Source of the DNA: Spirulina sp. CS-785/01
GTDB lineage: Bacteria > Cyanobacteriota > Cyanobacteriia > Cyanobacteriales > Spirulinaceae
NCBI RefSeq assembly: GCF_028330525.1
Contig: NZ_JAQMSD010000175.1
Span: 1-64,000, forward strand
Reading direction: 5' to 3'
Length of the DNA stretch: 64,000 bases
Below the pieces are notes generated by a model, which saw only the letters and a list, made by a program, of their open reading frames with translations, searched no databases and was not told where the DNA came from. Below, in pieces: positions 1,240 through 61,657 of the stretch. Position 1 is the first letter of the stretch. Every line of letters starts with the position of its first letter. A program made the position numbers and the translations under genes.

Positions 1240-1265
1240 TTTGGATAATTCATAATAGGTAAGTA

Positions 1266-1418
1266 AAAAACCCGGTTTCTTTCTCCATCTAGAGACATCA
1301 TCCCCCACTCACAAGAGAAACCGGGTTTTTCGGACAAACAAAAGGGAGTCAAAAACCCAGTTTCTTTCTCCATCTAGAGACATCACCCCCCACTCACAAG
1401 AGAAACCGGGCTTTTCCG
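1266..1418. repeat. Tandem pair of palindromic AGAAACCGGGTTTCT-type elements
   Basis: Two near-identical copies of a roughly 65-base element start at 1266 and 1351, 85 bases apart. Each copy has AAACCCGGTTTCT at its left end and AGAAACCGGGTTT at its right end, so each can fold into a hairpin around a loop containing TCCATCTAGAGACATCA. They lie between csx18 and cas1. Shorter relatives of the same arm occur at 20876-20890, 54352-54366 and 54402-54416. Confidence 0.85.
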
Positions 1419-1438
1419 AGACAACCAACCAGGACTCC

Positions 1439-1714
1439 CTAAAACCGCCGAATATCATCCCGTTGACGCTCCTGCATCACCCCCGTATCAACCCCCCTGG
1501 GTAACTCAGACGGCGGCACACCACCCCCCAACCAAGCCACCACCCAATCGCCAACCACACAAACCCCAAAGGTCGAGGCCGTAATAAACAACGTATTGGT
1601 AATTACCGCCGCTAACCCTAACGGCGCAATCAACAGTAAAGTCAGGGTAATCGCACAATTCACCCCTGCAACCACCCCACTGCGAACCAGTGCGGCCCGA
1701 GTCGATATATACAT
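1439..1714 (-). CDS. csx18: Small membrane protein, probable CRISPR-associated Csx18
   Basis: A 91-residue protein with two hydrophobic stretches (about residues 12-32 and 34-62) and a polar C-terminal tail rich in Arg and Asp. Small membrane proteins of this size and position, beginning with a run like STRAALVRSGVVAGVN, are found beside cas1 in cyanobacterial type III loci and are labelled Csx18 there; the name is applied from recollection of that family and its position. The function of Csx18 is not established; a membrane-linked role in the type III response is inference. It is the first gene of the csx18-cas1-cas2 minus-strand unit. The only alternative is an unrelated small membrane protein. 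Confidence 0.6.
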   Translation of the reverse strand: MYISTRAALVRSGVVAGVNCAITLTLLLIAPLGLAAVITNTLFITASTFGVCVVGDWVVAWLGGGVPPSELPRGVDTGVMQERQRDDIRRF

Positions 1715-1901
1715 AACGCTTAATTCCTGAAACTCAATCTTTTATCTTCACCCTACTCTCCCCCCACCCCTAAAATCCACTAATAGCCCATCCTCACCCC
1801 TCCCTCCCTTGCCCCCATCAAACCCCCATGCTAGGCTAAACCCCAAACCTCATCTTCCCTAACAAAAATATTCTCTTTTTTTCCCTCCCAAAACAGCCCC
1901 C

Positions 1902-3113: not shown

Positions 3114-3150
3114 AATATAGTAAAATTCCATAATTTAGTATTTAATCATA

Positions 3151-4083
3151 TTAAGGAAGTGAAAAAGTATCTATTAATCTATGCTGTTTTGTACTAGGAT
3201 CAAATTCACCTTGTACTTCATCTTTATGTTTTTTTCCTAATCGAGTCCAAGTAGTTTTTGGCTTGGGAGAGTAACTGAATCCAAAACCATGAGGTAAACT
3301 AATTCCAACTAAATCAGTTATGAGATAGCGATCATGAAACTGCTCCCACATAAAAACAGTAATTGGAATCTTTAGATTTTTAATTTGCTGTTTTAAATGA
3401 TTAAAACTGACTCTATATTCTTCACTTGAGTAACGGTCCAAACTAACATGAAATTCTATGCTTTGCAAGGAGTTAGTAAGGGGTATTTTTATAAAAATTT
3501 CATGAAATTTATTATGACTTTTAGAGTCGGGATTTAAGTAAGGATCAATAAACATTAAAGAATTAGAATGTTGGAAAATTAGCTTTAAATTGTTTACATA
3601 GTCTTGTACTGTTCGAGATAATCTTACTGATGGACTTCTATCTAGCCACCAATTAGTTTCATTAAGTTTTTCTATAGAAGCAACTATTTGATTGTTTTCA
3701 AACCTTTGTTTTGTAGCTTTTGGTGTGATTATTCCAGTTAGCGGTGCTTGCTTATGGGAAGAAAGTGCTTCTTGACACCATTCAAAATCATCACTAGGTT
3801 TTTTTAAATTGACTTTTTCTGTGGTGACTAATCTTCGTTGCTTTTTTAACGCTTTTAAAAACTTTTTAGTTGTAATGGGGTGCTTATACTGAAGCCGATT
3901 AATAAATTCATACCATTTGCCACCATGTAAATTACGTAGTAACGCTTCTTCTTGTAATATTGATAAAAGCTGTTTTAAATGAATTTCACAAATATCTTTA
4001 CGACAATCTTCATCAGTAGTGCTGTTACCATAAGAATTAAAATTGAATACATCTGGGGTTAAACTATATTCATTCAAAAGCAT
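3151..4083 (-). CDS. Unrecognised protein with a phospholipase-D-like HDRYLITD motif, partner of the DUF3696 ATPase
   Basis: A 310-residue protein not assignable to a named family. The N-terminal half is helical and charged. The C-terminal half (about 175-290) contains NSLMFIDPYL, then VFMWEQFHDRYLITDLVG and HGFGFS. HDRYLITD fits an HxR(x)4D variant of the HxK(x)4D motif of PLD-type phosphodiesterases, including a preceding strand with a conserved Asp. Only one such motif is present, so an active enzyme would need to dimerise. It begins 5 bases after the ATPase gene stops, so the two are very likely co-transcribed and coupled. Base composition is markedly A+T-rich compared with the cmr genes. 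A nuclease or phosphodiesterase effector role is inference. Confidence 0.6.
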   Translation of the reverse strand: MLLNEYSLTPDVFNFNSYGNSTTDEDCRKDICEIHLKQLLSILQEEALLRNLHGGKWYEFINRLQYKHPITTKKFLKALKKQRRLVTTEKVNLKKPSDDFEWCQEALSSHKQAPLTGIITPKATKQRFENNQIVASIEKLNETNWWLDRSPSVRLSRTVQDYVNNLKLIFQHSNSLMFIDPYLNPDSKSHNKFHEIFIKIPLTNSLQSIEFHVSLDRYSSEEYRVSFNHLKQQIKNLKIPITVFMWEQFHDRYLITDLVGISLPHGFGFSYSPKPKTTWTRLGKKHKDEVQGEFDPSTKQHRLIDTFSLP

Positions 4084-4088
4084 TATTT

Positions 4089-5792
4089 TTAAAATAACTC
4101 CTCTAATTCTTCTTCAAAAAAACCACCCGGCCATGATTTTATAAATTCTCCTCTTGCATTCAAGTCTATATGTCGAACAACCGCAGTATCTCCAATAGGT
4201 TCAACAAATAAAACTGATATATTTTCTGGTTTTATTGGGGGGGCATGAGAGGGTAATTCCTCTTGAAATGTTTCGCGCATTCGTCTCATAATTCGCAACA
4301 TTAAATGTTCGCTATGCGTTTCAATGATTAAGGTATTTTTCTGTGCAGATTCTATGAATAAATCTCCTAATTCTGTTTGCAGTTTAGGGTGTAAGTGTAA
4401 TTCTGGTTGTTCCATTAAAATGGTTTTTCCTTCCGATAATACACTTTGTGTGATAACGGGTAAAACTTGACTGATACCGAAACCAACATCTAATAAACTA
4501 ACATTAACATTATTTTTATCCACTAAGCGAATAGTGTAAACATCACTTTTTAAACCTTCTTCACTAGGAGTGAATGAAACAGGTTGTAATTGATAATGAA
4601 TTTCAAAATCCTTGAATTTTTGATTAACTTGATCCAATAACTCCGGGTTTTTAAACAGTAAATTTGTCATCATTTTACCAGATTTACCTACTTGTGAGTC
4701 AGACTGATTTGTTGCAATATAAAAACGTTCTGGATAATCTCTGATCGGTCCAATATAGCAAGTTTCTTTGATAAATGTAAGAAATAGAGGATTTAAAAAA
4801 TCAATAAAATCGACTAATATATTAGAATGTTCTTGATAAATTTTAGCTAAATATTCTAATTGTTCATCCATTTCTTTTTGGATTAAATCCCCATAAAAAT
4901 TCGGTAAAAAATCATTAAAATCAAGATATTTTGAATAATTCATAACTTGAATATAATCTTCTAAAGCTACTTCTAATATTAACGTTTTATTGAGAATGCT
5001 TAGAAGTGAAATTATTCGATCTATTTTTAGTTCAATTTTCTCTTCATCTATTTTTCTTTGTTTTAATTGAGTTACTCCAAGTTCGTTATCATTTTCAGCT
5101 TTTAACTCTTCAAGAGCTTGAATTTGTTCAGTTTTTAACTCCTCAAGAGCTTGAATTTGTTTATTTTTTGCTGATGGTGGTCTTTTTATTCCAAAACTTT
5201 TTAATGCTGTTTTTACAACATTGGTTACTGATTTTCTGATATCTACTTTAGAGTGTTCCCACCAATTTTGCCAAATAATGTGATTAGGATTAAGTTCACG
5301 GATTATTAAATAATCTTGCTCCTCACTAGGTTGATAAGTCACAAAAGGTTCTTTCATATTACTAGCAAAACAGTTTATAGATTCAAGGCAAATTTGAGAG
5401 TCCCGATAACAATAAGTGACTTCTAAACCAATGAAGGGGTGATCCGTTAAAATCTCACCTAATAACGCTTGGATACTATCGGGTAAAGGTGGATCAGAAT
5501 CAAATTCCCCAATCTTGAAGGTAGTTTTAAAAGAAAAAAATCGCTCTGTTTCGTGACGATGAATAAATTCTCGATAATTCCCTAAATCTACAAGGTTTCC
5601 TTGAGGAAGTAAGAGTGTGTTCCCATCTCCTGCTTGCTCTAAGGTTTGTTTGAGCAGTAGAAGGGATTGAATAATGGAACTTTTTCCTGATGAATTTGCA
5701 CCGTAAATTAGGGTGATAGGACGAATGGGAATAGTTTCCGGGCCAGCAAAGGCTTTAAAGTTGGTGAGTTGATAGGAATGGAGTTTAGTCAT
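4089..5792 (-). CDS. AAA/ABC-type ATPase with C-terminal DUF3696 (OLD/Smc-like)
   Basis: A 567-residue ATPase. The Walker A motif GANSSGKSS is at about residues 31-39. The middle region (about 190-330) is a charged coiled coil with a short internal duplication of EQIQALEELK. An ABC-like signature DVGFGISQVLPV precedes Walker B TILMEQPELHLHP and a switch His in IETHSEHL. The last 50 residues, running from PENISVLFVEP to WPGGFFEEELEELF, match DUF3696. Such ATPases act as sensors or motors next to nuclease effectors in several phage-defence systems. It follows the Cmr6-Cmr1 gene after a 48-base gap holding a palindrome and precedes the PLD-like gene. Like its partner, it is A+T-rich, which suggests separate acquisition. 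Function in the CRISPR response is not shown. Confidence 0.85.
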   Translation of the reverse strand: MTKLHSYQLTNFKAFAGPETIPIRPITLIYGANSSGKSSIIQSLLLLKQTLEQAGDGNTLLLPQGNLVDLGNYREFIHRHETERFFSFKTTFKIGEFDSDPPLPDSIQALLGEILTDHPFIGLEVTYCYRDSQICLESINCFASNMKEPFVTYQPSEEQDYLIIRELNPNHIIWQNWWEHSKVDIRKSVTNVVKTALKSFGIKRPPSAKNKQIQALEELKTEQIQALEELKAENDNELGVTQLKQRKIDEEKIELKIDRIISLLSILNKTLILEVALEDYIQVMNYSKYLDFNDFLPNFYGDLIQKEMDEQLEYLAKIYQEHSNILVDFIDFLNPLFLTFIKETCYIGPIRDYPERFYIATNQSDSQVGKSGKMMTNLLFKNPELLDQVNQKFKDFEIHYQLQPVSFTPSEEGLKSDVYTIRLVDKNNVNVSLLDVGFGISQVLPVITQSVLSEGKTILMEQPELHLHPKLQTELGDLFIESAQKNTLIIETHSEHLMLRIMRRMRETFQEELPSHAPPIKPENISVLFVEPIGDTAVVRHIDLNARGEFIKSWPGGFFEEELEELF

Positions 5793-5814
5793 ACTAGAAT
5801 TAGATGAGGTGAAA

Positions 5815-5836
5815 TAGGTGCGCTAAAGCGCACCTA
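5815..5836. terminator. Palindrome between the cmr operon and the ATPase gene
   Basis: A perfect inverted repeat, arms AGGTGCGC and GCGCACCT around a TAAA loop, fills most of the gap between the Cmr6-Cmr1 stop and the ATPase start. There is no T-run, so it may be a dispersed cyanobacterial repeat or an mRNA processing/attenuation hairpin rather than a strong terminator. Confidence 0.55.
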
Positions 5837-5840
5837 CGAA

Positions 5841-7799
5841 CTAGGGTAGAGGAAATACTGTAGCATAATTTTTAGCTGACGTTTGGTTGCTTAATTCCTC
5901 TACATATTGCCGACGGGGATTCTGAGTTGCTCCAAAAACGGTGACAACTTGATAATCGCCTAAATCCGCAATCCACACAGGAGAGGGTTGTACACCCTTC
6001 ACGACTTTCCCACACAAGTTGCCATCATAGTCTTCCCTTGACCCTCTTTTAATTTTAAACTGGGGACTGTGAAGGATGTTTAACGCATAGGGTTTATCAT
6101 TTCTCTCCCTGCCATTACAAATAATGATTTCACAGTTCCGATCTACGGCATCTGTCCAAGTATCCTGATGGACTGGGAAATTATTGGTACGGTGGTTATA
6201 GTCGAGGTTTTGAGAGGTGAGTTGACCTAATGCTTGATAAAATGCCTTGAGACGCTGCTGAAAGGTCTTTTTAAAGGCGGAAATTTGTTCGGGGGCCTCC
6301 CAGAAAGGATCGGCTTCTTCTAGCTCAATATAGAAGGTTGAACCCCGATACCAAGGGGCGCGATCGCGGTTTTGTCGAGAATAACAAGGTCGTCTCGCCC
6401 CTTGTCCAATTCCCCCCAAATTAAACAATAACCAAGTTAAATTTTTCAACAATGTTTTTAACTGGGTCTCTTGGTCATTGGGCGTTTCTGGAGAGAAAGA
6501 TAAAACCAACGTTCCCTGCTGCTCCCCACAAGGATCATTTTGCCCTTTATAATTAGGACGGGGTTCTTTTTGAGCAATACGACCATTGAGCAAACTAACT
6601 TTCAAATAACCGTACTTTTTAGGATTAATGCCCCCAAAGAGTTGTGCTTCCCAAGTGGATACTTGTTGTGGGGTTAACACTCCCAAAGCAAAGGCACGAA
6701 ACCAATAACGCAACATGGATTTAAACGCCGTGGGACGGACTTCCGCTTGGGCTTGTCCGCGCATTTGCCATTCGTGGCGACGGTCATTCCATCGCCATTG
6801 GGTAAAGCGTTGATATCCGTGAATTAACTGCCCTTCTAAGCTAAAATCAACCCGGAAAAACTCATCTGTCGGTTGCCCCACTCCGGCTTTCAATAAGTCG
6901 CCATAGCCTGTGTTGACTTGAGACCCAATCCCAGACTGTAATCCTTGAATTAGCCAAGTTTTCACGGGTTCTAAAAGGGCTGCATCCTCACAGCGACTCG
7001 TTAACCGTAACCCGATTAAAAATGTGGTTTCTTTCAAGGATAAAAAGGGATTGGGATTGGGAGAATAATTCAGGTCATTCCCCTCCCAAGACCAAATATT
7101 ATTGGCAATATCCATCGTTAACCCTCCCGTTTGACTGGGGATGGGGTAAGCATCCAGAAAAACAATTTTTCCCGCTTTATCCGCATCCCCTGCTTCGAGA
7201 GAGCCAAAATATTTGGCAATGTTGGGATGGTCTTGAGCTTGTTTCCAGTTCAACTGGGGATTTTTTGCCATTAACTCTCGGATGGCCTGAGTTCTCGCCA
7301 CACCCCGTAGGGTACTAGAGGGGATATAGGGCATCCCCAAAGCATCAAAGGCCGGGAGTAAAATACTTTCGGGCCCCCGATGTCCCCCAACGCGAATCCG
7401 CCAAGGGCATTTGACTTGAAAGGTATTATTTTTTCCGGCAATGCGTTCGGTTCGTTTACTGAGGGTGGCGAGACGTTGGCGATAGTTGGCGTTTTCGGTG
7501 GCCTGTTGTAGGATTTCTACTTTTGTCCCGTCTTTGTAGTTGTCTCGGTCTGGTTCACGCATCCAGCGCAAATATTCAACGAAACTAGCGGTTTCGTGGG
7601 GACTGGGTTCGTTGTCGGGGTCAAGCCAAGGGGAGGGGGGAGTGTTATTGTTTCCCCCGTTTCCGCCTTGTCTGCCGCCACTCTTGTTTCTCGGTGCGTT
7701 TTTTCCGCCTTTAGAGATGACTTTCTTGGTTGGGGGGGTTGGGGGTTTTTTGGTCGCTTTGGAGGGTTTATTGGGACGTTTGGGGCGTTCATAGACCAT
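5841..7799 (-). CDS. Cmr6-Cmr1 fused RAMP (Cas7-type) protein of the type III-B effector
   Basis: A 652-residue protein starting at the ATG at 7799 (MVYERPKRP); a TTG at 7820 is a less likely start. The first 60 residues are a basic, Pro/Lys/Gly/Asn-rich linker. Residues about 125-330 form a Cmr6-like RAMP unit with the glycine-loop helix YIPSSTLRGVARTQAIREL. Residues about 335-640 form a Cmr1-like unit with EVRPTAFKSMLRYWFRAFALG and GGIGQGARRPCYSRQNR. Separate Cmr1 and Cmr6 cap the 3' end of crRNA in the backbone complex, so the fusion probably supplies both capping subunits. No separate cmr1 or cmr6 is present in this operon, consistent with this. Downstream neighbours are the ATPase and PLD-like genes. 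Confidence 0.88.
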   Translation of the reverse strand: MVYERPKRPNKPSKATKKPPTPPTKKVISKGGKNAPRNKSGGRQGGNGGNNNTPPSPWLDPDNEPSPHETASFVEYLRWMREPDRDNYKDGTKVEILQQATENANYRQRLATLSKRTERIAGKNNTFQVKCPWRIRVGGHRGPESILLPAFDALGMPYIPSSTLRGVARTQAIRELMAKNPQLNWKQAQDHPNIAKYFGSLEAGDADKAGKIVFLDAYPIPSQTGGLTMDIANNIWSWEGNDLNYSPNPNPFLSLKETTFLIGLRLTSRCEDAALLEPVKTWLIQGLQSGIGSQVNTGYGDLLKAGVGQPTDEFFRVDFSLEGQLIHGYQRFTQWRWNDRRHEWQMRGQAQAEVRPTAFKSMLRYWFRAFALGVLTPQQVSTWEAQLFGGINPKKYGYLKVSLLNGRIAQKEPRPNYKGQNDPCGEQQGTLVLSFSPETPNDQETQLKTLLKNLTWLLFNLGGIGQGARRPCYSRQNRDRAPWYRGSTFYIELEEADPFWEAPEQISAFKKTFQQRLKAFYQALGQLTSQNLDYNHRTNNFPVHQDTWTDAVDRNCEIIICNGRERNDKPYALNILHSPQFKIKRGSREDYDGNLCGKVVKGVQPSPVWIADLGDYQVVTVFGATQNPRRQYVEELSNQTSAKNYATVFPLP

Positions 7800-7844
7800 A
7801 GGGGGTTTCTCCTGTTGCAATGATGGGATAATTAAGGACTCGGT

Positions 7845-8240
7845 TCATTCTTCTCCGGTAATGTCGTGATAAACGGCATTGGCCCAGAAACTGAAGTCGT
7901 TGGCGAGTTCTAGTCCTAGTCCGGTGAGGCCGAGGTAATCATCGGAACTTAGGTCTTTGATGGTGTCTAAGCCGCGATCGCCCGCTAGATTTTTCAACCC
8001 CGACAGGCTTTCTAAGCATTCAAAGAACTTTTTAACGACTTGTTGCTTTCCTTCCTGCGTTAAGGCGCGTTCTTCAGCTTTAAGACGCATCATTCCCCAA
8101 GTGGCCAGATAGGTATAAAGTTCAACGGCTTGATTTTTCTGTTCTTTCAGTCGCGCTTCATCTTGGGAGGATTGCGATCGCAAGCCCGCTAATGCCTCAT
8201 ACACGGGTTTACTGATAGTGCGCGGATCAAATGTTGTCAT
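7845..8240 (-). CDS. cmr5: Cmr5, small helical subunit (Cas11) of the type III-B complex
   Basis: A 131-residue, almost entirely helical, charged protein. Its size and pattern (EARLKEQKNQAVELYTYLATWGMMRLKAEE, then a C-terminal helix with SFWANAVYHD) fit the Cmr5 family of about 125-170 residues. Cmr5 stacks along the complex opposite the Cmr4 filament and contacts target RNA. The gene sits 15 bases downstream of cmr4 and 45 bases upstream of the Cmr6-Cmr1 fusion, the expected order. Identification relies on size, helical character and position. Confidence 0.8.
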   Translation of the reverse strand: MTTFDPRTISKPVYEALAGLRSQSSQDEARLKEQKNQAVELYTYLATWGMMRLKAEERALTQEGKQQVVKKFFECLESLSGLKNLAGDRGLDTIKDLSSDDYLGLTGLGLELANDFSFWANAVYHDITGEE

Positions 8241-8255
8241 GATACTTTCCCCTTT

Positions 8256-9065
8256 TTAATTTTTAAACCATTGTTGAATAAAACCCCGTCCGAGGCTTTC
8301 TTGTCCCCCAATTTGAATAATGTCACTCTGCTGGAGTAATTGTTTAAAATCTCGTTCTGCATCAGCACTTGTGCCATTACTCTGGGCAGTTGTTCCCCAA
8401 GGGAAATACATTAAAGTATCCGGGGGAATGGCCTCCTCATAGCGAAATCCTCCCTCCACGGTTTTATGTTCATCGAGTTTAATTTTCACTTGTCGCCATA
8501 GTCCCATTTGTATTAACGTGGCACAATGGCGATCAGGTAAAATCATCACTCGTTCAATGCCTTTCGCTTCTGGACTTTGGGGGACAAATTCTTTCCAGTT
8601 AGAAAAGTCTTTTAACTCTGAAGCCTTTAATAAGGCATCTTTGAGGTAAACATTAGAATTTTCCTGTTTGAAATTACAACTATATGCGTCGGGAATGGTC
8701 ATTTCTGGATTATTCCACTTTGCCCAACGAGTGAGGAGTAAGGGGGAACTAATCCACACGACTCCATGACTGAGTGAGGGAATCGGCAACCAGAGAATTG
8801 ACCCATCGCCAATCCAAATTTTACCTTGGGTTAAATTCTCACTGCCATCGGAAGTTTTTCCCTCTTTTAGTTCATTTCCAAACAAGCGATCGCGCTTTAC
8901 CTGATCGGTTTCACTCGACCGAATTTTCCCCCGTAAGGTACTCGATGGAATATAAGGAAAATTAGTATGCGATTCACGGGCAATCCCCACTAAATTTCCC
9001 TCTTGGGTTGTTCCTCCGGTATGTAACGGAGACAGTAAATACAAATAGACGGTGTGCATATTCAT
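8256..9065 (-). CDS. cmr4: Cmr4, Cas7 backbone subunit and target-RNA nuclease
   Basis: A 269-residue RAMP protein. The start LYLLSPLHTGGTTQEGNLVGIARE and the glycine-loop helix YIPSSTLRGKIR are hallmarks of Cmr4, and the C-terminus ends with the glycine-rich IQIGGQESLGRGF. Cmr4 forms the crRNA-binding filament and cuts target RNA at 6-nt spacing using a conserved Asp in a loop near the N-terminus; the exact residue cannot be assigned without alignment. It lies between the CARF-HEPN gene and cmr5 and is transcribed with them. Confidence 0.93.
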   Translation of the reverse strand: MNMHTVYLYLLSPLHTGGTTQEGNLVGIARESHTNFPYIPSSTLRGKIRSSETDQVKRDRLFGNELKEGKTSDGSENLTQGKIWIGDGSILWLPIPSLSHGVVWISSPLLLTRWAKWNNPEMTIPDAYSCNFKQENSNVYLKDALLKASELKDFSNWKEFVPQSPEAKGIERVMILPDRHCATLIQMGLWRQVKIKLDEHKTVEGGFRYEEAIPPDTLMYFPWGTTAQSNGTSADAERDFKQLLQQSDIIQIGGQESLGRGFIQQWFKN

Positions 9066-9119
9066 AGACTTTTTGACCTACAATTGAATAATTTTTGCAG
9101 AATTTGGACAAGACAATCA

Positions 9120-10700
9120 TTACAGCACATGGGCTGATTCTTCTTTTAACGTTTGTATTCCCCAATCAGACAGCGATTTGAGCAAAGAGGTTTCAGGAAT
9201 CTGCCAATGGGGACTGGCAATTTTTTGGATAACCTCTCGCCAAAGTAGTACAATTTGCTGAGTTTCTTGTAAGTTTTCTGACAGTAAATTCTGTTGTTCC
9301 CATAGTCGTTCTAAATCATTTCTTGTAATCGGTTTTGCTTGATGGACAATATCATTACGACTGAGCCGAATCTCATTCAATAATTTAACATAGGGATTAT
9401 TTCGGGATAAATTATCTCGCCTTTGCCAAGCCTCAATGAGTTCTTTAATGGTGGGATCATAAGGACGGCGATTCATATCCCAATAATCTGGAATTGAAAT
9501 TAAACCTAGTTCAATCCAATTCTCTTGTTGATGGCGTAAATAAAGTAACCGTTCTAGGGTTTGTGCTAACTGCATAAAGGCAGTTGTGTAGTTATTTTGA
9601 GTGAGTTGTAATTCAATGAGAAAAAAGGTTTCTAAGGTGGCTTGTACAGCATCTTGACGGGTTTCTAATAACTGGTTTCGCCATTGCTGCACCCTTGCCC
9701 CACCTGCTAAATCTTCCAAATTCCTACTTCTCAGCCACCCCGTTTCAAAGTTACGATTATTTAAAAACGGTTCAATTTCCCAGTTGGTGACATTGGCTAA
9801 ATAACCCGCCAATTGATAAAGAACCCGATGGCGGAGTTGATGGGCTTGTAGTAAAATTTGACAGGTGCGAAAATCTCCCTTTTCCCAAATGGTGATGATT
9901 TGTTGCCGTTCCACAGGCCAAAAATATTCACTGACGGCAAAGAGTTCGTATTGGCTGGCAGTTTGGGCAGAACGCTTCCCGTTAGCCCCCTCGACATAGA
10001 GGGTTTGAGGTTCGATGGGGTTGGCATTCAGAACTTGGACTTGTCGCACTAAAGCCGCCGCACAAATTTCCAAACTTTCTGCGATCGCCGGAACAGCCCC
10101 TTTATTTTCCACCAGAAAGACCGGAGGGTCTTCCCGACTAGGTAATGCTTCCACCGCAAGGGGAAAGATAAACCCCTCCAATTCTTGGCGGATCAATTCC
10201 CGTTTATTGGCTGCAACGATAGGGGCAACCACATCCACTTGCACCCCAGGCCAAGTTTGCTCAATTTTCCCCTTCATCAGTTCCGCCAACCAGAGTGTAT
10301 CAGCGCGACGGTAGTTCCAGGGGGTACTTTCGGGCTGATTAGTTGCCCAGAGGATAATATGCTTTAATCCCTTGGGGACGGATTCTGCAATGATAGGGTC
10401 ATCGAGGAGTAAGCGCACCGCAGTAAAATCCCCGCCTAGCCACTCTGTACAATAGTCCCAATAGCGTTGTCCTAAATGGCGGACACTCCAAAAATAAGCG
10501 GGTTTGTTTTCCTCGTGATACTTGCGTTCGATTTGCAGTTCTCGGTATAGTTCGTTGATATGGGGGGGATGTCCGCGATCGCTATCGGCCCCAAAGCAAC
10601 GGACTATCCCATCTTGACAAAGCCAACCGACTTGTCTTGTGCCAACTGTAATAATTAACGTATCAACGCGATCGACTTGGGTAAGTTTAGACGGGTTCAT
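9120..10700 (-). CDS. CARF-HEPN ribonuclease, Csx1/Csm6-like, probably activated by cyclic oligoadenylate
   Basis: A 526-residue protein with the start set at the ATG at 10700, because the longer frame would overlap cmr3 by about 100 bases. Residues about 10-240 form a CARF-like Rossmann domain: VDTLIITVGTRQVG resembles CARF motif 1, ILWATNQ and RRADTLWLAELM fit the TDQ...DT region, and NKGAVPAIAESL corresponds to the TGGTP segment. The C-terminal helical half ends in a HEPN RNase motif RNDIVH (R-x4-H, Arg about 448, His about 453). Proteins of this design bind cyclic oligoadenylate from Cas10 and degrade RNA. It is embedded between cmr3 and cmr4, and Cas10 here has an intact GGDD, so a working cOA branch is likely. 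Confidence 0.82.
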   Translation of the reverse strand: MNPSKLTQVDRVDTLIITVGTRQVGWLCQDGIVRCFGADSDRGHPPHINELYRELQIERKYHEENKPAYFWSVRHLGQRYWDYCTEWLGGDFTAVRLLLDDPIIAESVPKGLKHIILWATNQPESTPWNYRRADTLWLAELMKGKIEQTWPGVQVDVVAPIVAANKRELIRQELEGFIFPLAVEALPSREDPPVFLVENKGAVPAIAESLEICAAALVRQVQVLNANPIEPQTLYVEGANGKRSAQTASQYELFAVSEYFWPVERQQIITIWEKGDFRTCQILLQAHQLRHRVLYQLAGYLANVTNWEIEPFLNNRNFETGWLRSRNLEDLAGGARVQQWRNQLLETRQDAVQATLETFFLIELQLTQNNYTTAFMQLAQTLERLLYLRHQQENWIELGLISIPDYWDMNRRPYDPTIKELIEAWQRRDNLSRNNPYVKLLNEIRLSRNDIVHQAKPITRNDLERLWEQQNLLSENLQETQQIVLLWREVIQKIASPHWQIPETSLLKSLSDWGIQTLKEESAHVL

Positions 10701-10741
10701 AGGACTGGGTTCAAGCAATAACAGGGTTAAACCAATTCGTT

Positions 10742-12399
<1,658 letters not shown>

Positions 12400-12447
12400 A
12401 TTTAAAAAAACAGAAAAAAATTGATAAGAATTGATCTGGGTTATGCC

Positions 12448-12471
12448 TAGGGCGTATGCAATATGCTCCTA
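12448..12471. repeat. Decayed interspersed palindrome downstream of cmr2
   Basis: An imperfect inverted repeat, arms TAGGGCGTAT and ATATGCTCCTA, sits in the 136-base gap between cmr2 and the uma2 remnant. A half-copy of a related element (TAGGGGCGCAATGC) follows near 12500. These resemble dispersed cyanobacterial repeats built on GTAGGGGCGTAT. Confidence 0.5.
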
Positions 12472-12535
12472 CAGAAATTGAGGATTTTTTAGGGTATCGT
12501 AGGGGCGCAATGCTGGTGCCCAAACTTGCTTTTGC

Positions 12536-15529
12536 TCATCCAAAAGGACTAAGTTCTTTTGAACCCACCTGGGAATTTCGGAGGACAAAAGCCGCTAATT
12601 TGAACCAGTTTTTCACCTCTTGCTCTAATTGTTTCTCTAATGTTTTCTCCCAAATTTTCTCTAAAAAGGCCGTTAATTGCTGAGTAAAACGCTCTTGTTT
12701 CTCATCATCCTTCAACACCTCTCGACGAGACACAAACGCCTGGACCCAAGGGGAAATAGCTGCCTTGTGCGGAACAGGATGTTGTTCCCATAATTGCGCC
12801 GCACTTTCAAATAATGCGGGTTCTAACTCTAAATTTAATAATGCTCGCCATTGGGCAAACGTCTCAAATTTAGTGGTCGCTTTGAGAATATTGCCGTTGC
12901 CGTAAATAACCCGGACTTGGACCGCATCTTTTTTATCTTCCTCCCCCTTCTCATTGATGCAGACATGATCTTTTGCGTCATCTTCCGCTTCCCAGAGGTT
13001 TTCTAAAGCAATAGCCAACGGTACACTATGATGAGCCATGACAAGGCCAAAACTAATAGTCGCCTTCTCTCCCATCGTGAACAAAGGACGGTCTGATAAG
13101 CCGTTAATAGGCGTTTTCGGTCGCCAATAGTCTCCCGTCTCATCAAACTCCCCGTGCGGGTCTTTATCCCCTTTAAAACACTGTCGCACATCCCACAGCC
13201 AACTGTCCCATTCCCAAAGGTTGGTATAAGCGAGGACATCATCTCCACCCCCATAAATTAACCGCCCCGCATAGCGTTGTTCGGTGAGATAGGGTAGAAG
13301 TTGGTTAGAAAAGTCGAGTAAAGCCCGACTGAGGGCATTATGGGTTGAGGGGCCCATACGTTTTTGCAGTTGTTTGAATTCCTCAAACTCTGGTTTCACG
13401 GGATCGGGAATAGTTAAGGTTTCGGGGAAATAGGCTTGATATTGCTTCATTTTCGTCCCTTTCAGCCAGTCCCCCATGCCATCCCCATCTCCGGCTGCTA
13501 AAACATACCAATTGGCCGGGTTATTATTGGGGTAATGGCGATCGATGCGCTGTTGTAGCTCATTGCGATAGCTGCGAACTTCCTCCTCTGGTAATTCCAA
13601 CTCCTCGACCAGCCAACCTGCATTTAAGACACGAGGATGATACTGGGAATACTGTTCATTGTCTGAAGTATCAATCCAAGGAATTCCCCAAGATTGGCTG
13701 ATGAGGTCAGGAATTTTCCGGTGATCTTGAATAATTTTCTGCTGAATATCTTGGCAAGCGTGACGAAAATGCTGGAGTTGTTCGGATGTTCCGGTTTTGA
13801 GAAAACCCGCTACTCCGGCAGTGAGGTCGGGATAAGACCCGGCTATATTGGTTTGACCTTGTTCGTTGTCTATCCCCAGTAAGTCGGGTAAAACTTTTTC
13901 TAAACCTCGTTTGACGGTTTCGGTGGCGTTTAATTCTTCAATGCCGTCAAATAATCCAGCATTTCTTGTCCAATAGTTGCGAGTCTCTCTTTCTGTTACC
14001 CAGTCTGTGAGTTCTCCTGCTTGGTTGCGTTTTTTCTGGTGGTCGGGATAGACGACAGACCCTAACCCAGAAATGGTCGAACGGGGGCCGAAGACGGTGG
14101 GAAGTTGCCAGTTACGGGCATTTTTGACTGCTGCTAGGCTATAGCGGTTTTGGTCGAAGATGGCGGCCCACCATGACCCCACATTGGCGGCACAGGGGTT
14201 GCGGTGTTGAGTCTCTTTGCGATGTTGTCCACTTTTACGGAGAAAGTCTAGTTCTTGTTGAAGGAAGAGTGCTTGCTTGCCGGTCAGTCCGTAGGCTTCA
14301 TTTTGCCGTTCACACCAATCTTGATCTTGTTGGGCTTTTTGTTGTGTGGCTTGGGGGGTATCGTCTTGATAAATTTCACTACTTTTGAGGGTTTCCCCTT
14401 CTTTACCGATGGGAACGGCAGTCCAGTAGATTTGCCATTGTGCTTCTAGCCAACTGGTCCAAGTTCTATCGGTTTCTTGTAGTTGTCTTGTCCAGTGGCG
14501 TTTCTCTTTTAAGTGGGTGAAGACAAGATGGGCAACTTGTCGCCATTCTTGCAATAAGGTGCTTTTGGCGGTTTGCATGGCGGCTGCGACTTTTTCTTTG
14601 GGCAGGATTAATAGGAGTACATTGGGGAAGCCAGCAGTGAGTAAGCTGCGATCGCTAGGTTGTTTGACCCATTCTCCAAATTCTTGTCTCAGCCAATGGT
14701 CGATTAAGGGTTGTTGGAACAAACTGGGATAAAGGAAGCAGTCGGGCCCGTATTGTTTGGCAAGAGTCCAGCAGACTTTGGCGGACAGGTAATGGAGTAA
14801 CCAAGACCCTGCCCAGAAGTCTCGCATTTTCCGACTGGCTTTGATCAGTTGTTGGACGGGGGAGAAGCTGAAGGTGGCTAGGTAGGCATGGGGGAGAGGC
14901 GCATTGGCTGGCCAAGGGTTGGCGAGAAGGTCTGGGGTGGCATTATAGCCGATGAATGCTCCTGCTAGGGCGGCGGTTAAGCTGGCATGACTCCAGATTG
15001 ATCCGTCGGGAAAGCGGGTTTCGGCGGGCAGGAGTAATAAAGATGGGTCATTAAAGTTTTGACAGGTGGTTTCGGGGAGGCAACGCCACAGCCACCAAAA
15101 CAGGCGTTTGGGGTCGTTTCTGATGGCGGTGGGGATACTATTTCGCAGGTCTTGTTCTTGCTGTTGGAGGTAGTTTTTACGGTTGCTGAGAATTTCTTGA
15201 TGGTGAGTTTCTGGGAGTTTAAGGTCTTGTTGTTCTCCTGAGAGGAGATGGCTAATTTTTAAGCCTTGGTCATTATAATTAACACTGGTATTGAGGTTAG
15301 CGATCGCGCCGCGATCGCTGGCAGAGGTAATATAATCGGCATTTTTCAGGTGCTGAAAGATTTTTCCGCTTTTGCTTTCAGGATTCCAGTTATTGTCTTT
15401 CCAGTCTGCCATGGCTTCTAGGTCGAGCCAGAAGCTATTATCACCGCGTCCGGTGTTGTTATGTAATCCTTTTAAGGCCGGGTCATGGAGAAGTCCCCAA
15501 ATTTTCGCTTGCCAATAGACATTGGACAT
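12536..15529 (-). CDS. cmr2: Cmr2/Cas10, large subunit and cyclic oligoadenylate synthase of type III-B
   Basis: A 997-residue Cas10. The N-terminus has KIWGLLHDPALKGLH, an HD motif at the place of the HD-nuclease domain. The central region YVLAAGDGDGMGDWLKG is the first Palm segment, and LIYGGGDDVLAYTN carries the GGDD cyclase motif (about residues 761-764) of the second Palm domain. GGDD converts ATP to cyclic oligoadenylate on target-RNA binding; the intact motif matches the CARF-HEPN effector encoded two genes downstream. It is the promoter-proximal gene of the minus-strand effector operon. Presence of an HD dipeptide does not by itself prove DNase activity. Length is within the family's usual range of 800-1000. 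Confidence 0.95.
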   Translation of the reverse strand: MSNVYWQAKIWGLLHDPALKGLHNNTGRGDNSFWLDLEAMADWKDNNWNPESKSGKIFQHLKNADYITSASDRGAIANLNTSVNYNDQGLKISHLLSGEQQDLKLPETHHQEILSNRKNYLQQQEQDLRNSIPTAIRNDPKRLFWWLWRCLPETTCQNFNDPSLLLLPAETRFPDGSIWSHASLTAALAGAFIGYNATPDLLANPWPANAPLPHAYLATFSFSPVQQLIKASRKMRDFWAGSWLLHYLSAKVCWTLAKQYGPDCFLYPSLFQQPLIDHWLRQEFGEWVKQPSDRSLLTAGFPNVLLLILPKEKVAAAMQTAKSTLLQEWRQVAHLVFTHLKEKRHWTRQLQETDRTWTSWLEAQWQIYWTAVPIGKEGETLKSSEIYQDDTPQATQQKAQQDQDWCERQNEAYGLTGKQALFLQQELDFLRKSGQHRKETQHRNPCAANVGSWWAAIFDQNRYSLAAVKNARNWQLPTVFGPRSTISGLGSVVYPDHQKKRNQAGELTDWVTERETRNYWTRNAGLFDGIEELNATETVKRGLEKVLPDLLGIDNEQGQTNIAGSYPDLTAGVAGFLKTGTSEQLQHFRHACQDIQQKIIQDHRKIPDLISQSWGIPWIDTSDNEQYSQYHPRVLNAGWLVEELELPEEEVRSYRNELQQRIDRHYPNNNPANWYVLAAGDGDGMGDWLKGTKMKQYQAYFPETLTIPDPVKPEFEEFKQLQKRMGPSTHNALSRALLDFSNQLLPYLTEQRYAGRLIYGGGDDVLAYTNLWEWDSWLWDVRQCFKGDKDPHGEFDETGDYWRPKTPINGLSDRPLFTMGEKATISFGLVMAHHSVPLAIALENLWEAEDDAKDHVCINEKGEEDKKDAVQVRVIYGNGNILKATTKFETFAQWRALLNLELEPALFESAAQLWEQHPVPHKAAISPWVQAFVSRREVLKDDEKQERFTQQLTAFLEKIWEKTLEKQLEQEVKNWFKLAAFVLRNSQVGSKELSPFG

Positions 15530-25747: not shown

Positions 25748-27701
<1,954 letters not shown>

Positions 27702-55912: not shown

Positions 55913-56644
55913 TTACAGGTTGAGTTTTTTAAAAATCCCTTCCGGAATACTGCGAATAATGAGTAAAATCCATCTCCACATCCAGAGGGTATAGAGAATA
56001 TTGGTTTTGCTGCGATAAGCGTTATAAATGGCCGTAGCCACTTGTTGGGGGGATGCGGTGATGGGTTGGGGTAAGTCCATGTTTGCTGTCATGCGGGTGG
56101 CCACATAACCGGGTTTGACAGTGATTACATGAACCCCAGATTTGACGAGACGATTCCGTAACCCGCTTAAATAGGTGGAGAAGGCCGCTTTGGCACTGCC
56201 GTAGATATAATTACTCTGACGACCGCGATCGCCTGCTACCGAAGATATTCCAATAATAGTCCCATTTTGTCGTTGTTCCAAGTCTTGGGCGACTAAATTT
56301 ATAATCGACACCGCCCCCGTATAATTACTATTAATAATACGCTGAGTTTCCGCAAAATCCCCCTCTGCTTGTTTTTGATCCCCTAAATACCCAAATACAC
56401 AAACCACCACTGTCGGTTTTTCGGGAAGATTCTCATAAAACTCCCCATGAGAGGCAAAATCTAACCCATCAAACTCCCGCAGGTGGACGGGTTGTTGATG
56501 TTGAATGGTAATATCCTTGGCGAGAGGATCAAGGAGATCAACCTCTCGGGCCGCAAGTGTCAGGGAATGGCCGTGACGGGCAAATTGATAAGCGATCGCT
56601 TGGGCAATATCCGATTTAGCCCCTAAAATTAGAGTATGGGTCAT
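55913..56644 (-). CDS. DprE2-like short-chain reductase (polyprenyl-P-keto-arabinose reductase)
   Basis: A 243-residue SDR. The cofactor loop is LILGAKSDIAQAIAYQFARHG, the catalytic Ser is in IGISSVAGDRG, and YIYGSAKAAF gives Tyr-x3-Lys; the C-terminus has a hydrophobic helix (WMWRWILLIIRSIP). The sequence resembles mycobacterial DprE2 (Rv3791), which reduces the 2-keto sugar made by DprE1 to yield polyprenyl-phosphoryl-arabinofuranose. It is the last gene of the ubiA-dprE1-dprE2 cassette. Its ATG is preceded by a TAAACAA heptamer array instead of a Shine-Dalgarno. Confidence 0.85.
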   Translation of the reverse strand: MTHTLILGAKSDIAQAIAYQFARHGHSLTLAAREVDLLDPLAKDITIQHQQPVHLREFDGLDFASHGEFYENLPEKPTVVVCVFGYLGDQKQAEGDFAETQRIINSNYTGAVSIINLVAQDLEQRQNGTIIGISSVAGDRGRQSNYIYGSAKAAFSTYLSGLRNRLVKSGVHVITVKPGYVATRMTANMDLPQPITASPQQVATAIYNAYRSKTNILYTLWMWRWILLIIRSIPEGIFKKLNL

Positions 56645-56678
56645 TGTTTATTGTTTATTGTTTATTGTTTATTGTTAA
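56644..56678. repeat. Heptamer array TTGTTTA between dprE1-like and dprE2-like genes
   Basis: Four perfect TTGTTTA units plus a partial one span from the dprE2-like start codon to inside the dprE1-like 3' end and supply its stop codon. A change of one unit shifts the frame by one base. Confidence 0.92.
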
Positions 56679-57995
56679 CTCTAATCTCTCCGCTAAATGA
56701 GACGTAAACCCAGGGGGGAGAGACTGCTTAAATTGTTCTAAATGGGGATAATTTTGTAACGCTTCTTTCTTCATTCTCGCATCCTTGGTTAAATATAACC
56801 GTCCACCATACTTTAACACCAGTCGATCTAACTGTTCTAATAACTCAAACACTTTCGGCTGAACTTTGAAATCTAAGGCCAAAGTATAACCCTCCATGGG
56901 GAATGATAACCACGCTTCCGGTTCTCCCTTTCCAAATAATTTTAACACCGCTAAAAATGACCCTTGACCACTCTGGCTAATTGTGGTAAGAATCTCGCTT
57001 AATCCGTCTTTACTGGTTTCTTTCGGTAAGACAAACTGATATTGGACAAACCCCGGTTTGCCATAAATGCGATTCCAATTATAAATACTATCGAGGGGAT
57101 AAAAGAAGGGATCATAACTAATAAGACTTTGACTCTCTTTTGCCCATTGCTTGTTATAGTATAGGGTGTTAAAGGCTTTTACAGTTAACCCATTTAAGGC
57201 AAAACGGGGGAAGTAAAAGGGAATGTTTAATTTGCGCTTTTGGGGGATTTCTAGGGGGTTGGCTTTTTGGTTAGGGGAAACATCTTCTAAAGTCGCGTGT
57301 TCTCCTAATAATAATAATGATCTTCCCTGTTTTTCCCCTGTGGCCAAACAGTCAATCCATGCCACACTATACGTCCAGTCGGTGGAGGACTCAAATAAGT
57401 CCATAATTTCAGCTAAATTACGGGCTTTAATACAAGTTTGTCGAATGTAAGCGGTTTCGATTTTCTTGAGTAAAAAGGTAGCAGAAAGTATTAATCCTGT
57501 CAAGCCCATTCCGCCCATAGTTAGCCAAAATAACTCTTGATTTTCCTGTCGAGAACAGGTGAGAATTGTACCATCAGCTAACATTAAATCAAAGGACAAA
57601 ACATGACGGGAGAAACTGCCCTCTTTATGGTGATTTTTTCCGTGGACATCGGAAGCAATTGCCCCCCCAACGGTAATAAACTTTGTCCCCGGAGTGACGG
57701 GTAAAAAGAGTCCTTGGGGGAGGATCACGTCTAAAATTTCTGAGAGTAAAACCCCTCCTTGACAGGTGAGAATCCCTGACTCGGTGTTTAAGTCTAAAAA
57801 CTTATTCAATTTGAGGGTTGAAAATACCTGTTTTCCTAGAGACGCATCTCCGTAAGATCGACCATTTCCCCGTAAGGTTAAAGGGGATTGTTGTTGTAAA
57901 TAGTTTTGGACATCAGGAAGTAATCCCAACTCGTCAACTTCTGCGGAGAGTTGGGGGTAATTTCCCCAGTTGGCAATAACTTGTTGTTGTGTCAT
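56655..57995 (-). CDS. DprE1-like FAD-dependent oxidase
   Basis: A 446-residue flavoprotein with the FAD-binding pattern LRGNGRSYGDASLG and PGTKFITVGGAIASDVHGKNHHKEGSF, nearly identical in layout to mycobacterial DprE1 (GRSYGD, VHGKNHH). The catalytic Lys appears in GGRLYLTKDAR. At the position of mycobacterial Cys387 (WNICVDF) this protein reads YTLALDF, so the Cys targeted by benzothiazinones is Ala. DprE1 oxidises C2 of polyprenyl-phosphoribose. The gene starts 4 bases after the UbiA stop; its own stop lies in the heptamer array. Confidence 0.88.
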   Translation of the reverse strand: MTQQQVIANWGNYPQLSAEVDELGLLPDVQNYLQQQSPLTLRGNGRSYGDASLGKQVFSTLKLNKFLDLNTESGILTCQGGVLLSEILDVILPQGLFLPVTPGTKFITVGGAIASDVHGKNHHKEGSFSRHVLSFDLMLADGTILTCSRQENQELFWLTMGGMGLTGLILSATFLLKKIETAYIRQTCIKARNLAEIMDLFESSTDWTYSVAWIDCLATGEKQGRSLLLLGEHATLEDVSPNQKANPLEIPQKRKLNIPFYFPRFALNGLTVKAFNTLYYNKQWAKESQSLISYDPFFYPLDSIYNWNRIYGKPGFVQYQFVLPKETSKDGLSEILTTISQSGQGSFLAVLKLFGKGEPEAWLSFPMEGYTLALDFKVQPKVFELLEQLDRLVLKYGGRLYLTKDARMKKEALQNYPHLEQFKQSLPPGFTSHLAERLELTINNKQ

Positions 57996-57999
57996 AGGA

Positions 58000-58917
58000 T
58001 TACCAATAAATTAAAATACCAAAGGTCAGTAACCAAGCGGCAATGACACTTTGTAGAAAAGCATCTTGCAACAAAATTTTAGTGGGTGATCCACTTTTTG
58101 TAAAGACGAGGGTTTGTTGGAGATAGCGCATAATTCCCACCACGACAAAAACGGCTGTGACATATAAATTGGGGTGGCCAATGCGGTTCACCACTTCATC
58201 AGAAACTGTGTACATAATGTAAGTCACCAGCGTTACTGAAGACGTTAACATCATAGACAAGTCAATGAACTCTAAATTATAGCCTTCAATGGACTTGCGG
58301 GTGTTATTTCCTTTGCGAAAAATGAGGTATTCATCCCGACGTTTGGCTAATCCGAGTAACAGTGACAGAAGAAAGGTTAACATGATTAACCAATGGGAGA
58401 TAAAAACCTGACCGACGACTCCTCCTAAAGCGATGCGGAGTAAAAACCCAAAGGCAATAATACAGATATCGAGAATGGCGATATGTTTGAGACGAATGCT
58501 ATAGAGTAAATTCATCACAAAATAGGCCAAGATGATCGCCAACGCATGAAAGGAGAGAAAGATGCTGATCAGAAATGCGATCGCAAATAAACCGATAATG
58601 AGAAGATTCGCTTCAGATTTCGTCACGGCCCCGGAGGCCAAAGGCCGTTTGCGTTTTTCGGGATGGAGTTTGTCTTGGGGAATATCCAGATAGTCATTGA
58701 TCACATAAATGCAACTGGCCATCAGCGAAAATGCGAAAAACCCTAACACCAAGGATGCAATGGTCTCCCAATTAAACAAACGGCCCGCAAAAAACGCAGG
58801 AACAAAAATAAACCCATTTTTGATCCAGTGATGGACCCGGATCAGTTTTAGTAAATGCCTCCCCAGTGAACCTTTTTGGCGTTTTTCCACCCGTCTTATC
58901 CTCAATCCTCTACCCAT
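58000..58917 (-). CDS. UbiA-type polyprenyl-phosphate phosphoribosyltransferase (DPPR synthase-like)
   Basis: A 305-residue UbiA-fold protein with about eight hydrophobic helices. The signature INDYLDIPQDKLHPEKRKRP (NDxxDxxxDxxHPxKRxRP) matches mycobacterial Rv3806c, which transfers phosphoribose from PRPP to decaprenyl phosphate. A second acidic motif appears in LAKRRDEYLIFRKG. It is the first gene of the three-gene cassette leading to polyprenyl-phosphoryl-arabinose. The phosphatase that should act between steps one and two is not in the window. Confidence 0.88.
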   Translation of the reverse strand: MGRGLRIRRVEKRQKGSLGRHLLKLIRVHHWIKNGFIFVPAFFAGRLFNWETIASLVLGFFAFSLMASCIYVINDYLDIPQDKLHPEKRKRPLASGAVTKSEANLLIIGLFAIAFLISIFLSFHALAIILAYFVMNLLYSIRLKHIAILDICIIAFGFLLRIALGGVVGQVFISHWLIMLTFLLSLLLGLAKRRDEYLIFRKGNNTRKSIEGYNLEFIDLSMMLTSSVTLVTYIMYTVSDEVVNRIGHPNLYVTAVFVVVGIMRYLQQTLVFTKSGSPTKILLQDAFLQSVIAAWLLTFGILIYW

Positions 58918-59452: not shown

Positions 59453-61657
59453 ATGCCTTATCCCCTTTATGTCGCCTTTGTCTGGCATCAACACCAACCC
59501 TTATATAAATCCTCTGCGAGTGGGGAGTATCGTTTACCTTGGGTTCGGTTACACGGAACGAAAGACTATCTCGACTTGATTTTAGTCTTAGACCGTTATC
59601 CCAAGCTACATCAAACGGTGAATCTAGTCCCGTCTCTTATTTTGCAACTAGAGGATTATATTGCCGGAAAAGCGGTTGATCCCTATCTCTCCTTGGCGTT
59701 GAGTGATGAGAGGACCTTAGATTTAGGCCAAAAGCATTTTATTCTCGATCACTTTTTTGACGGGTATCACCGAACCTTAATTGATCCTCATCCCCGTTAT
59801 GCCCAACTCTATCAGCAACGACAAGAGGAGGGACCCGCTTGGTGTTTAGAACATTGGACAGATCAGGAGTTTGGGGATTTATTGGCCTGGCATAATTTAG
59901 CCTGGATAGACCCAATTTTCTGGGATGATCCCGAAATTGCGGCCTGGTTGAAACAGGGGAAAGGGTTTACCTTGCGCGATCGCACCCAAATTTACCACAA
60001 ACAACAACAAATCCTCAGCCGCATCCTCCCCAAACACCGACAAATGCAAGAGTTGGGCCAACTCGAAGTCACCACCACCCCCTACACTCACCCCATCCTC
60101 CCCCTCTTAGCAGACACCGACTCCGGACAAGTGGCCGTCTCCGACATGACGCTTCCCCAACAGCGTTTTCAATGGCCCGAAGATATCCCCCGACACCTCC
60201 AAAAAGCCCAAGAATTATATCAAAATCGCTTTGGCCGGCCCCCCAAAGGACTATGGCCCTCAGAACAGTCCGTCAGTCCCGCTATTTTGCCTTATATTGC
60301 CCAAGAGGGGTTTCAATGGCTATGTTCCGACGAAGCCGTGTTAGGGTGGACCCTAGACCATTATTTCCATCGCAATGATCAGGGGAATTTATATCAACCG
60401 GACCGTCTCTACCAACCCTACCGCTTAGAAACCCCCCACGGAGACTTATCCATTGTCTTTCGAGATCACCGACTGTCCGATTTAATTGGGTTTGGGTATA
60501 GTTCCATGACTCCCCAAAAGGCCGCAAAAGACCTCATGGGACATTTAGAAGCCATTTCTGACAGTTTAGACCCTAATCGCCCCTGGTTAGTGACTATCGC
60601 CCTAGATGGGGAAAATTGCTGGGAGTTTTATCAACAGGACGGCCTCCCCTTCCTCAATGCCTTCTATCAACGATTAAGCGATCATACAGGGATTGAAGCC
60701 GTAACGGTTAGCGAATATTTAGACCAATTCCCCCCCACCGAAACCTTGTCTAGTGATCAACTTCATAGTGGGTCTTGGGTGGATGGCAGTTTTACCACTT
60801 GGATTGGGGATCCCGTGAAAAATCGCGCTTGGGACCTCCTCTACGAGGCCCGGGAAACTCTCGCTAACCACCCCGAAGCGACCGAAGACAGCAACCCCCA
60901 AGCCTGGGAAGCATTATACGCTGCCGAGGGGTCTGATTGGTTCTGGTGGTTTGGGGAAGGCCATTCCTCAAACCAAGATCAGATGTTTGACCAATTGTTT
61001 CGAGAACATCTTTGTGCTATTTATGAGGCATTGAACGAACCCGTTCCCCCGCAGTTGGAGGACAACGTGGACTCTCACGAACAAAATGGCGATCGCACTC
61101 CTAGGAGTTTTATTCATCCTATCGTGGACGGATTGGGTGATGAACAAGACTGGGACAAAGCAGGACGAATTGAAATTGGCGGTGCAAGAGGAACAATGCA
61201 CCGTGCTAGTTTAGTACAACGGGTCTTTTATGGCTTAGACCACCTGAACTTTTATCTCCGCTTGGATTTCTCATCGGGAATGAACCCCCAAACGGACTTA
61301 CCCCCCGAATTACATCTATTGTGGTTTTATCCAGGGGTGACGATGTATAACAGTCCTATCCCTCTGGAGAATTTACCCAATGTGTCTCCCTTAAATTACC
61401 TCTTTCACCATCATCTGGGGATTCATCTTCGCAATGGGGAGACTTGGTTTGCAGAAGCAGGCGATCGCTACCAGTGGCATTCCCAAGAAACCCATGCCAC
61501 AATGGCCTTGGATGAATGTTTAGAAATCGCCGTCCCTTGGTCCGACTTAAACATTCATCCCGATTATCCGTTACGAATTGTTGCGATTTTGGCAGATAAT
61601 GGCCGCTATCACAGCTATTTCCCAGAAGATCAACTCATTGGGTTACAGGCCCCTTAA
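59453..61657 (+). CDS. Glycoside hydrolase family 57 protein
   Basis: A 734-residue enzyme. GH57 motifs are FVWHQHQPLY at the N-terminus (His-Gln-His), GLWPSEQSVSPAIL with the putative nucleophile Glu, and IALDGENCWEFY, which should include the region of the acid/base Asp. The C-terminal 170 residues are a beta-rich domain starting after HPIVDGLGDEQDWDKAGRI. The family cleaves or rearranges alpha-glucans; substrate and product cannot be told. Length and the C-terminal domain suit cyanobacterial amylopullulanase-like members. Confidence 0.92.
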   Translation: MPYPLYVAFVWHQHQPLYKSSASGEYRLPWVRLHGTKDYLDLILVLDRYPKLHQTVNLVPSLILQLEDYIAGKAVDPYLSLALSDERTLDLGQKHFILDHFFDGYHRTLIDPHPRYAQLYQQRQEEGPAWCLEHWTDQEFGDLLAWHNLAWIDPIFWDDPEIAAWLKQGKGFTLRDRTQIYHKQQQILSRILPKHRQMQELGQLEVTTTPYTHPILPLLADTDSGQVAVSDMTLPQQRFQWPEDIPRHLQKAQELYQNRFGRPPKGLWPSEQSVSPAILPYIAQEGFQWLCSDEAVLGWTLDHYFHRNDQGNLYQPDRLYQPYRLETPHGDLSIVFRDHRLSDLIGFGYSSMTPQKAAKDLMGHLEAISDSLDPNRPWLVTIALDGENCWEFYQQDGLPFLNAFYQRLSDHTGIEAVTVSEYLDQFPPTETLSSDQLHSGSWVDGSFTTWIGDPVKNRAWDLLYEARETLANHPEATEDSNPQAWEALYAAEGSDWFWWFGEGHSSNQDQMFDQLFREHLCAIYEALNEPVPPQLEDNVDSHEQNGDRTPRSFIHPIVDGLGDEQDWDKAGRIEIGGARGTMHRASLVQRVFYGLDHLNFYLRLDFSSGMNPQTDLPPELHLLWFYPGVTMYNSPIPLENLPNVSPLNYLFHHHLGIHLRNGETWFAEAGDRYQWHSQETHATMALDECLEIAVPWSDLNIHPDYPLRIVAILADNGRYHSYFPEDQLIGLQAP

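Follow-up and report, generated by a model that had tools for sequence, protein, structure and literature searches.

An intact UbiA-DprE1-DprE2 operon in a cyanobacterium, predicted to supply a polyprenyl-phosphoryl-D-arabinofuranose donor

We confirmed an intact UbiA-DprE1-DprE2 operon in the window, the stretch of 64,000 nucleotides from Spirulina sp. CS-785/01 analysed here. The operon probably makes a polyprenyl-phosphoryl-D-arabinofuranose donor for the periplasmic arabinosylation of a surface glycan. Homology, conserved catalytic residues and gene order all lend good support to its placement in the polyprenyl-phosphoryl-arabinose route. D-Arabinofuranose is uncommon in nature, mycobacteria being its best-known source. 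In the open-access literature, which was the scope of our search, we found no paper on DprE1 or an arabinose-donor route in cyanobacteria. The first-pass annotation had described three contiguous genes of this route; all three reading frames are intact, and the motifs that it quoted are present (NDYLDIPQDKLHPEKR in UbiA, DVHGKNHH and GGRLYLTKDAR in DprE1). The psaA- and psaB-like ORFs at 31.5-36.3 kb, identified by eye, mark the window as cyanobacterial. The genome carrying the window is termed G000, and G001, G002, G010, G028 and G158 are other sampled genomes. The operon and its flanks comprise the following features.

58000..58917, minus strand: UbiA-family polyprenyl-phosphate phosphoribosyltransferase, DPPR synthase-like (305 aa; NDYLDIPQDKLHPEKR and KRRDE motifs; PRK12324, 230 bits against a cut-off of 234; 8j8j, E 1.4e-34)
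56655..57995, minus strand: DprE1-like FAD oxidase (446 aa; Ala373 at the Cys387 position)
55913..56644, minus strand: DprE2-like short-chain reductase (243 aa; Ser-Tyr-Lys catalytic pattern; 21gq_C, E 4.8e-31)
56643..56676, minus strand: perfect 7-bp tandem repeat of 4.9 copies, from the final codons of dprE1, including its stop, to the dprE2 start codon
59023..59259, plus strand: NifU C-terminal-like ORF of 78 aa, a divergent neighbour in the flank, outside the pathway
59453..61657, plus strand: GH57 glycoside hydrolase, a syntenic flank kept in G010, outside the pathway

Only 4 nt separate UbiA from DprE1 and 10 nt separate DprE1 from DprE2, and none of the frames has an internal stop. Scans of the sequence for promoters and terminators gave chance-level hits only. 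Heptamer arrays resembling the repeat at the dprE1-dprE2 junction also occur at 25754 and 43756 of the window. At its other end, the window carries a CRISPR locus (253-15529) with Cas1 (253-1308) and type III-B Cmr-like proteins; its members include a RAMP protein (5841-7820) and Cas10/Cmr2 (12536-15529).

The three proteins match the Pfam families UbiA, FAD_binding_4 and adh_short, respectively. The top solved structure for UbiA is the decaprenyl-phosphate phosphoribosyltransferase (DPPR synthase) 8j8j, and that for DprE2 is the mycobacterial DprE2 21gq_C; the top NCBIfam model for DprE2 is the generic SDR PRK07102. For DprE1, the E-value is 9e-125 with NF053785 and about 2e-81 with solved DprE1 structures, of which mycobacterial DprE1 ranks first. 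The NCBIfam models of the three enzymes are among the best-scoring matches, and all three proteins score below the equivalog cut-offs (417 of 500 bits for NF053785, 189 of 250 for NF053786 and 230 of 234 for PRK12324). By sequence comparison, the operon belongs with the UbiA-DprE1-DprE2 donor cassettes found across bacteria and lies outside the curated equivalog families by cut-off.

In the window DprE1, R46, Y48, H118-G119-K120, Q318, Q320, K352, Y401 and K404 are conserved, and the active-site residues His132, Lys134, Gln336, Lys367, Tyr415 and Lys418 (mycobacterial numbering) are kept. Twelve of the 15 positions checked are the same as in the mycobacterial sequence; the exceptions, S228V, N385T and C387A, are common to most non-actinobacterial relatives. 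The reported alanine at the equivalent of the benzothiazinone target Cys387 was borne out by alignment, as Ala373, and the window DprE1 therefore lacks the cysteine that marks benzothiazinone-sensitive DprE1. In M. avium, natural resistance is due to an alanine at the same site (PMC3206020). We rejected it as a special feature of the window protein, because alanine is the norm outside Actinobacteria (90 of 93 DprE1 sequences).

In the proposed pathway, UbiA would convert PRPP to polyprenyl-phospho-ribose-5-phosphate, from which an enzyme encoded outside the operon would remove the 5'-phosphate. Judging from homology and the conserved residues, DprE1 would then oxidise C2' and DprE2 would reduce the product to the arabino epimer. 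The lipid-linked donor would next cross the membrane, possibly with the single GtrA protein of G000 as flippase, and an unlinked GT-C would add D-Araf to a surface glycan, the top candidate being encoded at G000:C14:26708-28318. The donor-synthesis step of this predicted pathway is well supported. The pathway as a whole gains support from the top solved structures of all three proteins, which are the corresponding enzymes of the route, and from the related cassettes, which are kept together across phyla, are enriched in neighbouring polytopic proteins and, in G028, include an AftB-like GT-C. It is weakened by the failure to find a 5'-phosphatase, by the lack of a GT-C or flippase at the locus, and by the scores below the equivalog cut-offs.

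In the operons of relatives, the HAD phosphatase is either a standalone gene (45 loci, nearly always directly behind DprE2) or part of a fusion with UbiA or with LPG_synthase_TM, and GtrA and large polytopic proteins are frequently encoded as well. Genes for polytopic proteins of 450-750 aa are overrepresented at a distance of up to two genes from the core (37 of 271 near versus 16 of 574 far; odds ratio 5.5); since the loci are related to each other, the p-value of 7e-9 overstates the significance. A model of one from a Bacteroidota cassette (pLDDT 74.5) matched GT-C structures, with AftA and ArnT among the highest-ranking matches at low TM-scores, suggesting a GT-C fold; the single-sequence fold of the Campylobacteraceae cassette GT-C reached a pLDDT of 43 and was set aside. 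In the cyanobacterium G028, the gene following DprE2 is AftB-like (NF041481, 29 bits), and the solved AftB structure is its sole credible match (E 5.4e-6). In other cyanobacteria, the same operon also contains HAD phosphatase domains as well as genes for GtrA and GT-C. The end use in cyanobacteria, which the first-pass annotation regarded as unknown, is therefore more predictable, at the level of its class, than was assumed.

Several cyanobacterial cassettes show unusual arrangements. In six loci (L047, L055-L058 and L156), a HAD phosphatase-LPG_synthase_TM fusion lies inside the cassette and is possibly a combined phosphatase-flippase; this layout does not appear in the sections of PMC11127046 that we consulted. 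In G158 (L047:9720-11027), a second, degenerate DprE1 lies downstream of the cassette, with HGKNHH changed to SGYNQY and the N-terminal GRSYGD lost. In L050, two similar 424-aa ORFs (8109-9383 and 11172-12446) are inserted among the cassette genes, at the HAD-UbiA/GtrA and DprE1/DprE2 junctions, and are possibly a transposase-like element.

Neither in the window nor in G010 did we see a glycan biosynthesis cluster around the operon, as might be expected if the donor served a small lipid or secondary metabolite, such as a hopanoid, carotenoid or glycolipid, rather than a surface polysaccharide or protein. We consider this unlikely, since cassettes with other genes around them often lie beside glycosyltransferases, GtrA, GT-C or LPS-type genes, and since O-antigens or pilins are the targets of the systems published so far (PMC11127046, PMC12369383). 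A surface glycan is the preferred destination.

The mycobacterial DPA pathway (UbiA Rv3806c, Rv3807c, DprE1 Rv3790 and DprE2 Rv3791) shares with the window a homologous phosphoribosyltransferase, FAD oxidase and SDR reductase, whose catalytic residues are conserved. In contrast to that pathway, the window has alanine in place of Cys387, a DprE1 on a tree branch away from the mycobacterial one, no PAP2-type counterpart of Rv3807c that we could find and no Emb or Aft genes nearby. Its DprE1 is about 39% identical to mycobacterial DprE1, as compared to 55-56% to that of Chryseobacterium; among the matches listed, Bacteroidota proteins are the closest outside the cyanobacterial pair. The Bacteroidota cassettes (Chryseobacterium and Chitinophagaceae; UbiA-DprE1-DprE2-HAD, often with a GT-C) have the same gene order, whereas the window lacks the HAD gene that there follows DprE2. 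Pseudomonas paraeruginosa PSPA7_6245-6251 with TfpW likewise combines non-actinobacterial D-Araf donor synthesis with pilin arabinosylation genes (PMC12369383), but a link to pilin or TfpW was not seen for the window operon.

The three-component pentofuranose systems, with Citrobacter youngae O1/O2 as the prototype, work by the successive action of a UbiA-type synthase, a phosphatase, a flippase and a GT-C, and the presence of DprE1/E2 denotes the Araf type (Kelly et al. 2024, PMC11127046). Citrobacter ORF15 has been assayed with PRPP and farnesyl phosphate. The window shares with them the UbiA-type polyprenyl phosphoribose synthase and, with the Araf-type examples, DprE1/E2. However, its locus lacks the PRP domain, flippase and GT136-type GT-C described there and does not amount to a complete three-component system. 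The survey assigns Ribf to UbiA systems without DprE and Xylf to those with another epimerase. Since the substrate cannot be read from the sequence alone, and since the pocket residues N385 and C387 are replaced by Thr and Ala, DprE1/DprE2 might differ in specificity here and yield another pentofuranose, such as ribose or xylose. This seems quite improbable, given that DprE1/E2 are paired with Araf in the survey, that the other DprE1 residues checked are conserved, and that a sister cyanobacterial cassette, in G028, has an AftB-like GT-C.

As the first-pass annotation had stated, no phosphatase or arabinosyltransferase was recognised near the window operon, and neither a flippase nor a cassette-linked GT-C was found at the locus. 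The genome search for a PAP2 phosphatase that it had proposed found none in G000, nor in G010 or G002, with a model that matched 11 of 14 control genomes. The cassette-type HAD was not found in G000 by a profile (A3) that matched G001 and G002; in G002, this HAD gene is unlinked, about 2 Mb from the operon, at C2:70196-70777. Searches of G000 for the HAD-LPG_synthase_TM fusion and for the Bacteroidota GT-C, both run without a positive control, gave no match, and a GT87 search gave nothing useful. None of nine PMT_2 GT-C loci was similar to the cassette GT-Cs by phmmer. The flippase search of G000 covered GtrA, which is encoded by one unlinked gene on contig C280. A 1510-aa UbiA-containing protein on C310 was ruled out as a second DPPR synthase; it is an unusual fusion with PhyH, UbiA, squalene-hopene-cyclase-like, second PhyH and TPR portions in one frame (G000:C310:15584-20116; L059:8584-13116).

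The GT-C search, also proposed in the first-pass annotation, did yield one unlinked candidate, which is tentative. This 536-aa protein (G000:C14:26708-28318) is encoded within a glycan cluster, flanked by GT2 and GT4 genes. It is 29% identical over its length (E 2.5e-39) to the polytopic protein of a Campylobacteraceae cassette, whose gene overlaps UbiA by 4 bases. Profile comparisons with other cassette GT-Cs were weak, and the gene was found in no further sampled cyanobacterium. It is the best available candidate for the arabinosyltransferase. We treat it as a lead rather than a result, because it has one cassette association only and because G010, the nearest cassette-bearing relative, has the cassette but not the gene.

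DprE1 was detected at E <= 1e-50 in 16 of 386 sampled cyanobacterial genomes (about 4%), and as a full-length match in 5 of the 59 genomes of the nearest set. Kovacikia minuta CCNUW1 is a cultured cyanobacterium with a DprE1. DprE2 lies beside DprE1 in all 18 cyanobacterial loci examined, and UbiA is present in 17 of them. A collection scan revealed at least 588 DprE1 relatives, the best 80 of which are mostly from Bacteroidota, with Pseudomonadota, Campylobacterota, Kiritimatiellota, Chlorobiota and others also represented. The UbiA-DprE1-DprE2 cassette type is pan-bacterial, spread over many phyla.

In the DprE1 tree, the window and G010 copies (64% identical) are paired with a support of 99, and the pair lies inside a Bacteroidota/Kiritimatiellota-rich clade (98 in the 54-row set; 80-94 for the narrower joins). 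The remaining cyanobacterial copies fall in several separate places: the tree requires five changes of the cyanobacterial label, at least four of which are forced by well-supported branches. In AU tests, a single cyanobacterial DprE1 clade was rejected (p = 7e-6), and a grouping of the window pair with the six-member cyanobacterial clade was marginally rejected (p = 0.049). Unlike the DprE1 tree, the UbiA tree joins the window, G010 and G002 (99), and this difference indicates that the operons are mosaic. Such a mosaic operon is seen in L046 (G002:C2:2119001-2139000) and L163, where UbiA groups with that of the window and DprE1 lies in another cyanobacterial clade.

The tree placement and the GC content of the operon, about 40-44% as compared to 45-52% in most of the flanks, make a lateral gain likely, and we infer its direction. 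The source looks Bacteroidota-type. A mycobacterial origin was rejected, as both the tree and the identities indicate a Bacteroidota/Kiritimatiellota-like source, and the earlier label "mycobacterial-type" does not hold for a cassette carried by many phyla.

The gene order in G010 is the same as in the window, adjoining the NifU-like ORF and the GH57 gene; upstream of UbiA, G010 has a stretch homologous to the NifU-like ORF of the window. The window and G010 copies are 64-67% identical, have no internal stops and diverge by about 0.31, 0.17 and 0.57-0.63 at codon positions 1, 2 and 3, respectively. This weighting toward the third position, together with the lack of stops, is the pattern of purifying selection and implies that the operon is maintained. 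A non-functional, horizontally gained remnant that left its phosphatase and transferase partners behind, for which the lateral-looking phylogeny, the lower GC content and the phosphatase missing from our G000 searches might speak, is thus highly improbable, given the intact frames, the retained catalytic residues, and the synteny and third-position-biased divergence between two genera.

Beyond donor synthesis, we offer a broader and more doubtful proposal: some cyanobacteria may build D-arabinofuranose into the envelope by means of repeatedly acquired mosaic cassettes, which here would do without PAP2 and HAD phosphatases of the known kinds and rely on another 5'-phosphatase, together with an unlinked GT-C from an arabinosyltransferase group not yet described. 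DprE1 should not be taken as an actinobacterial signature. If the predicted donor pathway is right, D-arabinofuranose would be a predictable surface sugar in scattered cyanobacteria and, in phototrophs, could mark phage receptors and glycan diversity, and the operon would provide a clean genetic setting for finding the missing 5'-phosphatase and new arabinosyltransferases.
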